NCBI GenBank assembly: GCA_017347465.1
Contig: AP021858.1
Span: 1,178,001-1,242,000, forward strand
Source: Candidatus Nitrosymbiomonas proteolyticus
GTDB lineage: Bacteria; Armatimonadota; Fimbriimonadia; Fimbriimonadales; Fimbriimonadaceae
DNA: 64,000 nucleotides
Reading direction: 5' to 3'
A program made the position numbers and the translations under genes. The notes below the pieces were generated by a model that did not search any database, was not told where the DNA came from, and worked only from the letters and a program-made list of their open reading frames with translations. Of this stretch, positions 57,499 through 63,249 are shown piece by piece. The stretch's first letter is position 1, and every line of letters begins with the position of its first letter.

Positions 57499-58401
57499 TC
57501 AGAGCAGTTCGCCTTGCGCTTTGGGAGCCGTTGCGAGGGTCTCCCAAAGCTGACTTGGAGAGGGGAGCGCGACCGCACCCTTGGGTACGAGCGAGCGGTT
57601 GTCGTCGGGGGCGTGCTCGTCGATCCGCACCAGCAGTCGGCAGTAGTCGTTTTCGAGAGCTTCGACCGCGCCGGCCCAGGTTCCTCCGGAGTCGACGACG
57701 CACGATACCGCGATAGCACATTCCGCCATGCCGAAGATCAGCTTGTTGCGGGCCATGGCCCTCCCGACCGAGAATGGCGCTGAAGGGTGGTGATGGCTGA
57801 TGAGTGTCCACCGCCCGGTGGCGGCTCGTTCTTTGTGGGGCGGCTGTTCGGCGATTCGAGCGAGCGAATCCGCGACGACTCCAACGACGCTCCCCCCAGC
57901 CTCGAAAGCGGCGTCCATGGCGGACGCATCGACCCCCCGAGCGCACCCGGACACGAGCACACGTCCCTTGCCGGCGATCTCTCTCCCGAGTTCGGCGGCA
58001 AACGCGAGTCCGGGTTCGTCAGCGTCTCGGGAGCCTACGACCGCAACGGGAAGCTTATCGAATCGGGGGATCTGGCCGAGGACGAAGAGGACGGGGGGCG
58101 CGCGGTGGCCGAGCTTGAGAGGGTAGTTCGGCGGATACTCGTCGTCGAACTCGGTGACGACGCGAATGCCCACGGCCTTCAGCGCCTCGACCTGGGCCCA
58201 CGCCCCCTCCCGGTGGTCCCACAGGTGCTTGATCCTTCGAACGTCGTCAGGGCCGAGGCTGCGCTCGCACCAATCGATCAACTGTTCCGGTGAGAACTCA
58301 GCGTCGACCAAGTCGCGCAGAACCTCCCATGTCCTCTGAGGCAAGGGCTCGATGCCGGATACCAGTCGTCCGACAAACGCAACGGCCAGGTCTGATTTCA
58401 T
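57499..58401 (-). CDS. DprA-like SLOG-domain protein, partner of RecQ-PRTase
   Basis: ATG 58401 overlaps the stop of the RecQ-PRTase gene (ATGA). The 300-residue product has a short N-terminal helical region (VLRDLVDAEFSPEQLIDWCE) and a DprA/SMF-type Rossmann domain. Its motifs are VAVVGSRDADEPG, VSGCARGVDASAMDAAFEAGG and RNKLIFGMAECAIAVSCVVDSGGT. Standard DprA loads RecA onto incoming ssDNA in competence; canonical copies end in a winged-helix region, which is absent here. Pairing with a RecQ-PRTase suggests a dedicated DNA processing or defence-related role. Confidence 0.85.
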   Translation of the reverse strand: MKSDLAVAFVGRLVSGIEPLPQRTWEVLRDLVDAEFSPEQLIDWCERSLGPDDVRRIKHLWDHREGAWAQVEALKAVGIRVVTEFDDEYPPNYPLKLGHRAPPVLFVLGQIPRFDKLPVAVVGSRDADEPGLAFAAELGREIAGKGRVLVSGCARGVDASAMDAAFEAGGSVVGVVADSLARIAEQPPHKERAATGRWTLISHHHPSAPFSVGRAMARNKLIFGMAECAIAVSCVVDSGGTWAGAVEALENDYCRLLVRIDEHAPDDNRSLVPKGAVALPSPSQLWETLATAPKAQGELL

Positions 58402-60515
58402 CTGCTCCTCCGGCTTCTTCGCCGAGATGTCGCCAATGCTAAAGGATACACCGAAGTTGCGCCCGCTTCGACCAAAGCCGCGCTGATTGCGGCAAGCGTC
58501 CAGCCGGAGTCCACGATGTCGTCGAGGAGCAGGACGGTCCCCTCGATCTCGCCCCGAACCGAGAATCGCCCCCAAACGTTCTCAAACTGCCGAACTTCCG
58601 AGCCGTTTTCTTTTTGCGGCAACACGCGCTTTTCCCGCTCGATCACGCCTCGACATTCGATTCCGAGCGATTGCGCGAGGCGATTCGCGAAGGAATCCAG
58701 CGCCTTTCGTTGGGAAGCGTGAGGCGCCCACGTGATCCAATCGGGCGTCCATCCGACCGATTCGATGGCTTTGAGCGCGGCGACAAGCAGATCGTCGCCG
58801 TACTCGTCATGAACGTACTTTCCCGCCTGCACTGCCTCTCCGCGGCCCGGTTCCCCATAGAAGCTGAGCGCCACGCCTTCGGCTACCTTTCGAGTCGCGA
58901 GCAGGCCCCTTCGTCCCTTCGTCTTGGCCCCCAGTGGCGCTTGCTTAGGAACTCGAATGAGGATCAGTTCCCGGTCGAGAAACGCCGCCGCGGCTTCTAT
59001 GGAGTCGGGCGAAGGCGTGAACGAGGAGTAGTTTCGGCACCGGTCGCACTGCCCGCAATCCTTTGCGGGGTCTTGCCCCAGAGCCGATAGCAGATAGGAC
59101 ATTCGGCAGTCCGCCGTCTCGATGTACCGCTCCATGTCGTCGAGTTCCCTCAGCCTGCGCTTTCGAAGCGACTCGAATAGGGCCGGGTCGGGAGGCGACG
59201 CGTCGGGACGCCAGTTCAATGTGTCGTCCTCCACGAGCAATGCGCCCTGCGCTTCGAGGATTTCGAGCGCATGAAGCACTTGGACCTGGGGGGCGTCGGC
59301 GAGCCGCACCAATTCCGACTTCGGGATCGGCTCCCTGGTGAGCAAGCTATGAATCGAGTCGAAGACTCTGGCCGGGGGAGAGCCTCGCTCGATGAACCCA
59401 AGTTGGATGTCTCGATCGCCCTCAGAAGCAAGGAGAACAGCGATTGCGCGCCTGAGCTTGCGGCCTGCCCTTCCCGCCTGCTGATAGTACTGGAGAACGG
59501 AACCGGGCATTCGAGCATGGACGACAAAGCCGATGTCCTCCTTGTCGTACCCCATGCCCAAAGCGGAGGTTGCGACGAGAGCCTTGAGCTGGTTCGCCGA
59601 GAACAGTTCCTCGGCGTGCAGGCGTTCGTCGGAAGGCAGCTCCGAATGGTACGGCAGCACTTTGTGGCCCCTGTGACTGAGCCAGGCGGCCGTCTGCTCT
59701 GCGTCGAAGATGGTCGGCGAATAGATGACTCCGACCTCAGGAAGCTTGTGCAGCGCCTCATCGAGCCAGGCGAGCCTCGCGGCTGGGCTTGGAAGCCGGT
59801 AAGCAAGAAGCCGCAGGTTCGTTCGGTTCAGGTCCCCCTTCTGCACAGACCAACCGCCTCCCAAAAGGCTCATCAGGTCTTCGATGACCGGGGACGTTGC
59901 GGTGGCGGTGGTGGCGAGCAAGGAGGCGTCGGAGGGGAACCGCGAAGCGATGCTAACGATTTTTCGGTAGTCGGGCCGAAAGTCATGCCCCCACTCGCTC
60001 AGGCAATGAGCTTCGTCGATGACCAAGAGCCGTCCCCTCTCGAAGAAGTAAGGGAGAGCGGTTTCGGCGAACTCGGGGCGAGAGAGCCGTTCGGGAGCGA
60101 CGAGCACCACATCGACCTTCCCTGCATGGAGTTCAGCGACACACGATTCCCATTCACCGGCGTTGTCGGAGGTGAACGAGACGGCCCGAAGCCCGAGCTT
60201 GGCGGCCATTTCGATCTGGTTGCGCATCAGAGCCAGCAAGGGGCTGACGATGAGTGTGGGCCCCTCCTTCCTTCTTCGAAAGAGCCGGGCTGCGAGGAAG
60301 TACACGGCGCTCTTTCCCCAGCCCGTTCGCTGCACAACGAGATTCCTCGCGCCGGACTGCAAAACGGCCTCGATCGCCTCCCATTGGCCCTCCCGGAAGC
60401 GCGCATCCGGGCCGAACGCCTTAGAAAGGAGCTTCTCGCAGTACGCCCGGTCGTTGGGGCGCTGAGCCGATGCTGGTTTTCGGGGTCTCACGTTGACACT
60501 CTTATCTTCCCTCAT
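58398..60515 (-). CDS. RecQ-family helicase fused to phosphoribosyltransferase-like domain
   Basis: Residues about 30-400 form a RecQ superfamily 2 helicase: FREGQWEAIEAVL, Walker A TGWGKS (64-69), DEAH (167-170), TATATSPV, QYYQQAGRAGRKLRRA motif VI. A zinc-binding cysteine cluster (CRMS, DCGQCDRC) follows at about 465-492. The last 150 residues are a type I phosphoribosyltransferase-like domain with the PRPP loop VLLLDDIVDSGWT at about 658-670. No HRDC domain is seen. ATG 60515 is preferred to TTG 60524. It overlaps the DprA-like gene. Confidence 0.88.
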   Translation of the reverse strand: MREDKSVNVRPRKPASAQRPNDRAYCEKLLSKAFGPDARFREGQWEAIEAVLQSGARNLVVQRTGWGKSAVYFLAARLFRRRKEGPTLIVSPLLALMRNQIEMAAKLGLRAVSFTSDNAGEWESCVAELHAGKVDVVLVAPERLSRPEFAETALPYFFERGRLLVIDEAHCLSEWGHDFRPDYRKIVSIASRFPSDASLLATTATATSPVIEDLMSLLGGGWSVQKGDLNRTNLRLLAYRLPSPAARLAWLDEALHKLPEVGVIYSPTIFDAEQTAAWLSHRGHKVLPYHSELPSDERLHAEELFSANQLKALVATSALGMGYDKEDIGFVVHARMPGSVLQYYQQAGRAGRKLRRAIAVLLASEGDRDIQLGFIERGSPPARVFDSIHSLLTREPIPKSELVRLADAPQVQVLHALEILEAQGALLVEDDTLNWRPDASPPDPALFESLRKRRLRELDDMERYIETADCRMSYLLSALGQDPAKDCGQCDRCRNYSSFTPSPDSIEAAAAFLDRELILIRVPKQAPLGAKTKGRRGLLATRKVAEGVALSFYGEPGRGEAVQAGKYVHDEYGDDLLVAALKAIESVGWTPDWITWAPHASQRKALDSFANRLAQSLGIECRGVIEREKRVLPQKENGSEVRQFENVWGRFSVRGEIEGTVLLLDDIVDSGWTLAAISAALVEAGATSVYPLALATSRRRSRRSR

Positions 60516-60663
60516 CAGGGTCAACCGCGGGCGATTCGCGCCACAGAAAGCTCAGAATCCCTGGTTTTTCTGCCGAATTGTGCTGGAAGTTCTCCGACGG
60601 AGAACCGATATTTCCCTTGGAAGCACTCCGTCCGGCGACGGCCCACGGGGTGAGGACGCAGAT

Positions 60664-61869
60664 ATGCCCGTATTCACCTATACTGCCATCGATGCTTCGG
60701 GGAAGGCGGTCCGCTCGACTGTTGAAGCGGACAACGAGCAGATCGTCCTAGCTAAGCTCCGCGATCAGGCGCTTCATGTGACGGACATCCGTCGAACGTC
60801 TTCGAGCGGAAGGGTTCGTTCGTTCGGCAGGAAGCGGATGAAGGCGAAGAGCCTCGTCGTGTTCTCGCGGCAGTTTGCCACGATGATCGATGCGGGAATT
60901 CCGATTATGCGGTGCCTCGACATCCTCGCAGGCCAAACGCGGGACCCCGCTCTCAAGCCTGCGCTCGATAACGTCACGATCGACGTGAAGGGTGGCATGT
61001 CGCTCGCCGACTCCGTCGCCAAGCACCCCCACTGTTTCTCGAAGCTCTATGTGAACATGATTCGAGCGGCGGAGGTCGGTGGCATCCTCGATTTGATCCT
61101 GGACCGATTGGCCGGATTCCTCGAATACGAGGCCGAGGTGCGAGGGAAGATCAAGAGCGCGATGATGTATCCGACTCTTGTGTTCTTCTTCTCGATTGTG
61201 ATGCTCTTCGCGCTCTTCAGCTTTGTCCTCCCGAAGTTCAAGGAGATCTTCACCGGGATGGACGTGGAAATGCCTCCGGTCACGGCGGCGCTGTTCGCGA
61301 TGGGCGACTTCATGAACAGCTACTGGTTCGTGATCCTGTTCTTCGTGTTCGGAACGTTCTTGGGCATCAAGTTGTGGGGACGCACGACCAACGGGAGATA
61401 TCAGATCGACCACCTCAAGCTGAGGCTTCCGATCGTGGGTGAACTGTCGCTCAAGATGAGCGTCGCGAGGTTCACCCGGACGTTTGGCGTATTGATCAAC
61501 AGCGGCGTCCCCATTTTGCGGAGCCTCGAAATCGTCGGTGAGACCCTGAACAACTCCGTGTTGACCCAGGCGATCGACGAAGCGCGCACAAGTATCCGCG
61601 AGGGACAGAAGCTCTCGCAGCCTTTGGGCGCGAGCGGGCTGTTTCCGAACATGGTCACCTGCATGATCGACGTGGGCGAAGAGTCGGGCAGGTTGCCGGA
61701 GATGCTCGTCAAGGTGGGCGAGTTTTATGATAACGAGGTGGAGACCACCGTCAAGGGCTTGACGTCGATGATCGAACCCGCGCTGATCATCTTCATGGGT
61801 GTCATTGTGGGATTCATTGCAATTTCGGTAATGACCCCGATCTTCAAGCTGGTCAATAGTGTGAAGTAA
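60664..61869 (+). CDS. pilC: Type II secretion / type IV pilus inner-membrane protein (PilC/GspF)
   Basis: The 401-residue protein has two PilC/GspF domains: the first with FSRQFATMIDAGIPIMRCLDIL, the second with FTRTFGVLINSGVPILRSLEIVG; both include the family's SRQ/TRT-F...L..aG.P... pattern. Three membrane helices separate and follow them, ending FIAISVMTPIFKLVNSVK. It anchors the pilus assembly platform. Upstream of ATG 60664 is TGAGGA. No pilB/pilT is adjacent, but prepilin genes exist at 7390. The 108-bp gap to the sigma factor contains no terminator. Confidence 0.92.
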   Translation: MPVFTYTAIDASGKAVRSTVEADNEQIVLAKLRDQALHVTDIRRTSSSGRVRSFGRKRMKAKSLVVFSRQFATMIDAGIPIMRCLDILAGQTRDPALKPALDNVTIDVKGGMSLADSVAKHPHCFSKLYVNMIRAAEVGGILDLILDRLAGFLEYEAEVRGKIKSAMMYPTLVFFFSIVMLFALFSFVLPKFKEIFTGMDVEMPPVTAALFAMGDFMNSYWFVILFFVFGTFLGIKLWGRTTNGRYQIDHLKLRLPIVGELSLKMSVARFTRTFGVLINSGVPILRSLEIVGETLNNSVLTQAIDEARTSIREGQKLSQPLGASGLFPNMVTCMIDVGEESGRLPEMLVKVGEFYDNEVETTVKGLTSMIEPALIIFMGVIVGFIAISVMTPIFKLVNSVK

Positions 61870-61977: not shown

Positions 61978-63249
61978 ATGGCTGAATCTTTGAACTTCGA
62001 GATGGACCCCGAGGGGATTGTCTTCCGCTACCTGGAGAACCCCAGGCCGGACCTCAAGGACTTGATCCTCGTCCAGTACGCCCCGATGGTGGAGCGCGTC
62101 GCGAGGAAATTCGCGGGCATCGAACCGCTCGACGACCTCGTTCAAGTGGGCTTCATCGGCCTTTTGAACGCGCTCTCCAAGTTCGACCCCGAGGCGGGAG
62201 TTCGTTTCAACACGTATGCGACGTACCTCGTCGCCGGTGAGATCAAGCACTACCTCCGCGACAAGGCTCAGACAATCCGCCAGCCCGCATGGCTCCAGGA
62301 ACTGCGCCACAAGGTGAATCGCGCGACCGCGGTGCTTCAAAGCGAGTTGGGCAGGGAGCCCTCCGAGGCGGAAATCGCTTCGTACCTCGATGTTGCGGAG
62401 CATACGGTCCACGAGGTGTTTCAGACCTCCGAGATGATTCGAGTGGGATCGCTGGATTCGCTCACGGGCGACGACGATTCCGACGCCGAGGTCGATCGGT
62501 TGGACGCTTCGGACTACTGTCCCGAGCAGTTGAGCGTCGAAGAGCGAGTGGTCTTGGAGAGCGCGATGAAGCAACTACGGGACCTCGAACGCGAGGTGCT
62601 CGTCCTCTTCCACTTTGAATCGCTCAACCAGACGGAAATCGCCGCCAAGCTGGGCATCTCGTGCAACTACGTTTCGCACATCCTGCGTCAATCGCTCTCG
62701 AAGCTGCGGCGTATTCTCAGCAGGGAGGAAGAGAACGACCGCATCCTCAAGCGTCAGGCTGAGAGTCTCGACTTTGACGTGATCGATGCGACCACGGGGG
62801 TGTACACAGAGGCCTACTTCCGAACCCGGCTCGAAGAAGAACTGCACCGAGCTTCAGGCCAGAATGGGGCGGTCGCTCTTGTGACGGTCCGCTTCGAGGG
62901 GCTGGCCCACCTGGCGTCGTTCTATGGACAAACGAGCGTGGACGACTTCTTGGCGGACGCCGCCGACTTCCTCAAGGAAACCGTACGCCGACTCGACGTG
63001 GTTTGTAGGCTGGGGGATGCCGGGTTTGCGGTGCTCCTTCCTTCGACGGCCAACACGGCTTCGTTGGCTCGGCAGCGAATCCTCTCTCGAATCGTCGCCT
63101 GGATCGCTTCGCGGCAGGTGGACCAGCAGGACGTCAAAGCTATCTTGGGGAGTTCGTCTTTCCCGGTGGACGGAAAACGAGCCGCCACGATCCTCGACAA
63201 GGCTCTGCGCCCTGTGGACATCGAGTCTGCGGGGTTCCAAGCGGCCTGA
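61978..63249 (+). CDS. Sigma-70 family factor (SigB/F/G or FliA-like) fused to a degenerate GGDEF domain
   Basis: Residues 20-262 are a sigma factor: region 2 (LVQYAPMVERVARKFAGIE, DDLVQVGFIGLLNALSKFD, RFNTYATYLVAGEIKHYLRD), region 3 (LQELRHKVNRATAVLQSELG) and region 4 (LEREVLVLFHFESLNQTEIA, AAKLGISCNYVSHILRQSL). Residues 270-423 align with a GGDEF domain: DATTGVYTEAYF (270-281), a middle LVTVRFEGLAHLASFYGQTS and the C-terminal FPVDGKRAATILDKALR. The active-site signature reads GDAGF (346-350) instead of GGDEF, so cyclase activity is improbable and a binding or regulatory role is more likely. It follows pilC and precedes a USP gene. Confidence 0.88.
   Translation: MAESLNFEMDPEGIVFRYLENPRPDLKDLILVQYAPMVERVARKFAGIEPLDDLVQVGFIGLLNALSKFDPEAGVRFNTYATYLVAGEIKHYLRDKAQTIRQPAWLQELRHKVNRATAVLQSELGREPSEAEIASYLDVAEHTVHEVFQTSEMIRVGSLDSLTGDDDSDAEVDRLDASDYCPEQLSVEERVVLESAMKQLRDLEREVLVLFHFESLNQTEIAAKLGISCNYVSHILRQSLSKLRRILSREEENDRILKRQAESLDFDVIDATTGVYTEAYFRTRLEEELHRASGQNGAVALVTVRFEGLAHLASFYGQTSVDDFLADAADFLKETVRRLDVVCRLGDAGFAVLLPSTANTASLARQRILSRIVAWIASRQVDQQDVKAILGSSSFPVDGKRAATILDKALRPVDIESAGFQAA

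Follow-up and report, generated by a model that had tools for sequence, protein, structure and literature searches.

Gene content and domain architecture of the locus

We analysed a stretch of 64,000 nucleotides (the window) from “Candidatus Nitrosymbiomonas proteolyticus” (Armatimonadota; contig AP021858.1, positions 1,178,001 to 1,242,000, forward strand), which carries a gene for a sigma-70-type factor fused to a C-terminal GGDEF domain. The gene and the domains of its product lie at the following window positions:

61978..63249, + strand: sigma-GGDEF fusion gene, 423 residues (open reading frame, ORF; orthologues)
62074..62268, + strand: sigma-70 region 2, residues 33-97 (Pfam PF04542, E 1.2e-15)
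62299..62481, + strand: sigma-70 region 3, residues 108-168 (Pfam PF04539, E 2.2e-11)
62563..62709, + strand: sigma-70 region 4, residues 196-244 (Pfam PF04545, E 3.9e-11)
62662..62772, + strand: predicted continuous helix, residues 229-265, from region 4.2 to the GGDEF domain (AlphaFold secondary structure)
62782..63204, + strand: degenerate GGDEF domain, residues 269-409 (Pfam PF00990, E 7.7e-19; Foldseek 4urs, PleD)

Regions 2, 3 and 4 all score above their Pfam cut-offs and region 1.1 is absent, which is the composition of group-3 sigma-70 factors (SigB/F/G, FliA/WhiG). The best solved relative of the sigma part is SigB of Staphylococcus aureus, and the nearest curated subfamily is NCBIfam SigBFG (TIGR02980), with a score (184.1 bits, E 3.1e-54) below the curated cut-off of 234.35, so that the protein is close to this subfamily without being a member; FliA/WhiG is also close. 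The GGDEF match reaches 68.5 bits, about three times its cut-off of 23.8. A sequence-only reading of this DNA had described the same three sigma regions, followed by the layout of a GGDEF domain with LGDAGF in place of the signature motif, and the profile searches bear out each of these points. In an AlphaFold model built on 33 orthologues the domains are predicted with confidence (predicted local distance difference test, pLDDT, 80.6). Foldseek matched the N-terminal part to sigma factors and the C-terminal part to GGDEF domains, among them 4urs (144 columns, root-mean-square deviation 2.8, TMt 0.75) and PleD with cyclic dimeric GMP (c-di-GMP; 9g86/2wb4). Neither a missing GGDEF profile match nor an unrelated C-terminal fold, the two outcomes named beforehand as contrary to the fusion, was thus encountered. 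The REC-REC-GGDEF architecture of the PopA type is absent, with no REC domain detected by Pfam.

Distribution and origin

The fusion is no artefact of assembly or gene calling because a single open frame is present in 58 of 61 related genomes of the order. Within the class, 98 of 113 genomes have an orthologue, and searching 291 Armatimonadota genomes with a profile recovered full-length fusions in many further families, amounting to most families of the phylum tested. When 84,980 bacterial and archaeal species were scanned with a DNA pattern for this one protein, an approach that reaches close relatives only and bears little on other phyla, 34 relatives were found; apart from one metagenome-assembled genome, their titles all name Armatimonadota groups (Fimbriimonadaceae, Chthonomonas, Armatimonadetes). 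A phylogenetic tree separates the fusions as one group (support 100) from the GGDEF-less group-3 sigma factors of these genomes, as would be expected if the fusion arose once. The best plasmid matches listed were sigma-only, and none covered 80% of the protein. We found no description of a sigma-GGDEF fusion in the open-access papers searched, with subscription papers and preprints outside this search.

Loss of the active site and retention of the inhibitory site

Residue conservation was counted over 89 distinct fusions, i.e. 54 members of the class and 35 from other classes. The informative positions in the local gene are:

63013..63027, + strand: G346-F350 (GDAGF), replacing catalytic GG(D/E)EF (alignment)
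62848..62850, + strand: R291, equivalent to PleD R313 of the secondary c-di-GMP site, which reaches the neighbouring domain in PleD (alignment with solved PleD)
62986..62997, + strand: RxxD inhibitory-site motif R337-D340, equivalent to PleD R359/D362 (alignment with solved PleD)
63076..63078, + strand: R367, equivalent to PleD R390, third inhibitory-site residue (alignment with solved PleD)

None of the 89 fusions has an intact GG(D/E)EF motif. The columns of PleD D327, N335, D344, GGEEF and K442 are 93-100% conserved in 30 active cyclases that we took from the same genomes for comparison, and highly variable in the fusions, which thus lack both the signature motif and the metal and GTP residues of an active diguanylate cyclase. 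The inhibitory site presents a very different picture. Equivalents of R291, R337, D340 and R367 are all kept in 85 of 89 fusions, R291 being invariant (89/89) and its equivalent unconserved in active cyclases, and in the other classes these four positions belong to the five GGDEF-domain columns that vary least. The corresponding PleD residues R313, R359, D362 and R390 hold c-di-GMP as a dimer at the inhibitory site, R313 being contributed by a neighbouring domain (PMC7288161).

A second GGDEF family of the same genomes, with an N-terminus judged by eye to be CBS-like, is the mirror image of the fusion: its GGDEF motif is intact and the equivalents of R337, R367 and R291 are lost. Inhibitory-site residues therefore erode when they are not needed. 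This family (G000:C1:223642-224016, L250; orthologues L251-L261) is conserved across the order.

The fusion domain combines a GGDEF fold, a dead active site, RxxD and accessory arginines, as do degenerate GGDEF receptors of the PelD and PopA kind. Given the same pattern of retention, the domain is likely a candidate c-di-GMP receptor. Active cyclases are present in fusion-bearing genomes, and c-di-GMP should therefore be made there. The sequence-only reading had left the ligand as c-di-GMP or another nucleotide; the first part gains ground here, and GTP recedes as the likely ligand because the GTP and metal residues are gone. An active cyclase or a GTP sensor was rejected on the same grounds. 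The broader proposal, in which a sigma factor is directly connected to a module for nucleotide sensing or dimerisation, agrees with all the comparative evidence.

Linkage to type IV pilus genes

The conserved upstream neighbour of the fusion gene encodes the platform protein of the type IV pilus:

60664..61869, + strand: pilC (T2SSF, PF00482), type IV pilus platform protein (family search; synteny)

In practically every class locus whose flank is long enough, pilC immediately precedes the fusion gene in the same orientation, and the same holds for 9 of 20 loci from other classes. In the other-class loci examined closely, the order is pilB(MshEN)-pilT-pilC-sigma-GGDEF with the fusion at the operon end, one of these loci showing overlapping stop and start codons. 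When ORFs of at least 150 residues at the locus were clustered, a comparison that included no search aimed at RsiG, pilus genes were the only co-transcribed neighbours seen to recur. MshEN is a known c-di-GMP-binding domain, and PilB extension ATPases bearing it (L104 1746-3479 and L109 394-2220) give two candidate c-di-GMP receptors per pilus operon.

The link to pili extends beyond gene order. Eight nearly complete genomes of one genus have no fusion, and all eight also lack the cognate pilC (best match about 40% identity versus 64-70% in six fusion-bearing genomes) and an orthologous pilT (a paralogue of 57-59% or less versus 63-66%). The six fusion-bearing comparison genomes possess both, and in the genomes compared pilT sits at another locus. 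Both neighbours of the fusion gene had been offered as clues to its targets: pilC upstream held up, and the conserved operon position and co-loss strengthen the suggested connection to surface motility, while the universal stress protein gene downstream is present but peculiar to this genome and was rejected as a functional clue. Prepilin N-terminal signals (N_methyl) are numerous in some genomes, with 103, 75 and 59 matches in G007, G030 and G009, respectively.

A possible promoter box upstream of pilC

Regions upstream of pilC in the class share a CCGAnnAT box, of which the window has a weak copy:

60604..60612, + strand: ACCGATATT, weak local copy of the class CCGAnnAT box upstream of pilC (possible -10 element)

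The box is found in 25 of 28 class regions in its strict form and in all 28 once variants are counted, usually 45-75 bases ahead of the pilC start codon; in 37 shuffled regions about two occurrences are expected by chance. In four of six genomes it stands before the separate pilB-pilT unit as well. It resembles the WhiG -10 box GCCGATAA, which precedes type IV pilus genes in Rubrobacter (PMC8325347), and no SigB-type promoter (GTTT-N-GGGTA) was found before pilC. These similarities provide a lead that the fusion might regulate its own expression and that of pilB-pilT. In some genomes the box before pilC (L039-L071) forms a partial palindrome (CCGAGAATTCAATTGTCGG in L040), so that it could also be an operator instead of a -10 element.

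A conserved Ala-Ala end

Past the GGDEF domain, the fusions carry a tail whose sequence varies, as does its length (6-22 residues beyond position 412), and which ends here as follows:

63241..63246, + strand: C-terminal Ala-Ala, candidate ClpXP degron at the end of the variable tail (tail comparison; own transfer-messenger RNA tag; clpX)

An Ala-Ala end is found in 53 of 54 class members, compared with a background of 1 in 362 other ORFs of at least 250 residues from the same loci, and the trait requires five changes on the tree. The sole class member without it (L023) has KRKVA as its last residues and thus ends in Val-Ala. The organism's own transfer-messenger RNA tag, ANNNFAYAA, likewise ends in AA, and clpX is present in the genome. 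In the orphan sigma factor AntA of Streptomyces, a C-terminal Ala-Ala leads to degradation by ClpXP and an Asp-Asp variant is stable (PMC7142297). With the rarity of this ending in other ORFs, the matching tag, the presence of clpX and the precedent of AntA, a ClpXP degron appears to be the likeliest role of the tail.

A sigma factor with a probable built-in c-di-GMP receptor

Taken together, we consider it probable that the fusion is a one-component group-3 sigma factor for type IV pili that would be gated by c-di-GMP and turned over by ClpXP without a separate anti-sigma factor. The GGDEF domain, having lost cyclase activity, would act as a c-di-GMP receptor through its inhibitory site. A c-di-GMP dimer might be held by R337, D340 and R367 from one molecule together with R291 from another, thereby cross-linking two GGDEF domains, and the rigid helix leading into region 4 could relay this change to the sigma part and alter its availability to RNA polymerase, in either direction. 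In most lineages the Ala-Ala end would make the protein a ClpXP substrate and keep its level low, and the ligand might also gate this level. Type IV pilus genes would be the likely output. The most complete version, in which c-di-GMP cross-links two sigma factors and so sets both activity and exposure of the ClpXP degron for the control of type IV pili, all in a single chain with neither anti-sigma factor nor proteolysis adaptor, is more tentative, and we regard it as possible rather than probable.

Several observations weigh against this interpretation. The predicted template modelling score (pTM) of 0.38 gives no reliable placement of the sigma and GGDEF parts relative to each other, and the full-length arrangement was not used. 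RxxD also occurs in 28 of the 30 active cyclases of these genomes; it is thus ancestral in the phylum and its presence alone proves nothing, which is why we used selective retention and the CBS-like control instead. The eight genomes with co-loss belong to one genus, in which the genes may have been lost just once, and three of the four cases of a box before pilB-pilT are close relatives. Among members from other classes, 16 of 35 have the Ala-Ala end and about half are without it. Finally, 30 pilin-like genes were rejected as carriers of the CCGAnnAT box (0/30).

The last point also speaks for a c-di-GMP-responsive sigma factor whose main output is not pili, the pilC neighbourhood being a remnant of operon history. 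In the class only pilC is still adjacent, and in several families (f12, f13) the fusion gene does not adjoin pilC at all. Still, we think this unlikely, as it sits poorly with the co-loss of the cognate pilC and especially of pilT at its separate locus, and with the box common to the pilC and pilB upstream regions. Similarly, the Ala-Ala end might be kept for a reason unrelated to ClpXP, e.g. another protease or some other C-terminal recognition; the residues preceding it are unconserved and many members outside the class do without it. An ending so nearly absent from other genes, identical to that of the organism's own ssrA tag and proven as a degron on another sigma factor (PMC7142297), makes this improbable.

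The main rival to a receptor function is a ligand-free relic that senses no nucleotide and serves for structure, for dimerisation or as the docking site of a partner, e.g. an anti-sigma factor or a pilus protein. The active site is dead in all fusions, and the invariant E288, Y276 (in the class) and W375 are no inhibitory-site ligands and could form a protein interface. However, throughout the phylum the strongest retained columns include R291, R337, D340 and R367, and the sister GGDEF family has lost residues of this four-ligand site; the retention of exactly those four residues is left unexplained because a pure scaffold would not need them, and we judge this explanation quite unlikely. That the former active site senses GTP or some other nucleotide is very improbable with its metal and GTP positions freely substituted, even if GTP-binding degenerate GGDEF domains are known, such as CC3396 (cited in PMC7288161).

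Comparison with known systems

A c-di-GMP-gated sigma factor of this kind would find a close counterpart in RsiG-WhiG, which a 2021 paper called the only sigma/anti-sigma complex known to be a target of c-di-GMP (PMC8325347). There, too, c-di-GMP controls a group-3 sigma factor, the output in Rubrobacter is type IV pili, and the -10 box is similar to the one upstream of pilC here. However, c-di-GMP binds to the coiled coil of a separate anti-sigma factor, whereas the candidate receptor of the fusion is a GGDEF domain in cis. The PopA/CtrA/ClpXP system of Caulobacter shares a degenerate GGDEF domain with an intact RxxD as c-di-GMP effector and the coupling to ClpXP turnover of a transcription regulator (PMC12564702, PMC10333796), but PopA is a REC-REC-GGDEF adaptor acting in trans, while the fusion unites receptor, regulator and candidate degron in a single polypeptide. 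PelD of Pseudomonas likewise has a dead active site and binds c-di-GMP at its RxxD inhibitory site (PMC10333796, PMC7288161), although it is a membrane GAF-GGDEF protein for polysaccharide export and no sigma factor. AntA resembles the fusion as an orphan sigma factor with a conserved Ala-Ala end, yet it is of the extracytoplasmic function (ECF) type, with neither a receptor domain nor a link to c-di-GMP. Regulation by a fused C-terminal domain is known from ECF sigma factors such as ECF41, which is a two-domain ECF type with a SnoaL-like extension; to our knowledge, no extension of the ECF41 type is a second-messenger receptor.

If our interpretation holds, a sigma factor carrying its own receptor would link a second messenger to promoter choice by the shortest route, with one protein of a little-studied phylum reading c-di-GMP and directly deciding which genes are turned on. 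It would also represent a second solution, arrived at independently in an unrelated phylum, for connecting c-di-GMP via a group-3 sigma factor to type IV pili, and one chain may unite the sensing of the messenger with regulated proteolysis.

Other observations in the window

On the minus strand (57499-60524), a DprA-like and a RecQ-like helicase ORF, both identified by eye, overlap by about 180 bases in different frames. The C-terminal part of the RecQ-like ORF reads, also by eye, as phosphoribosyltransferase-like.
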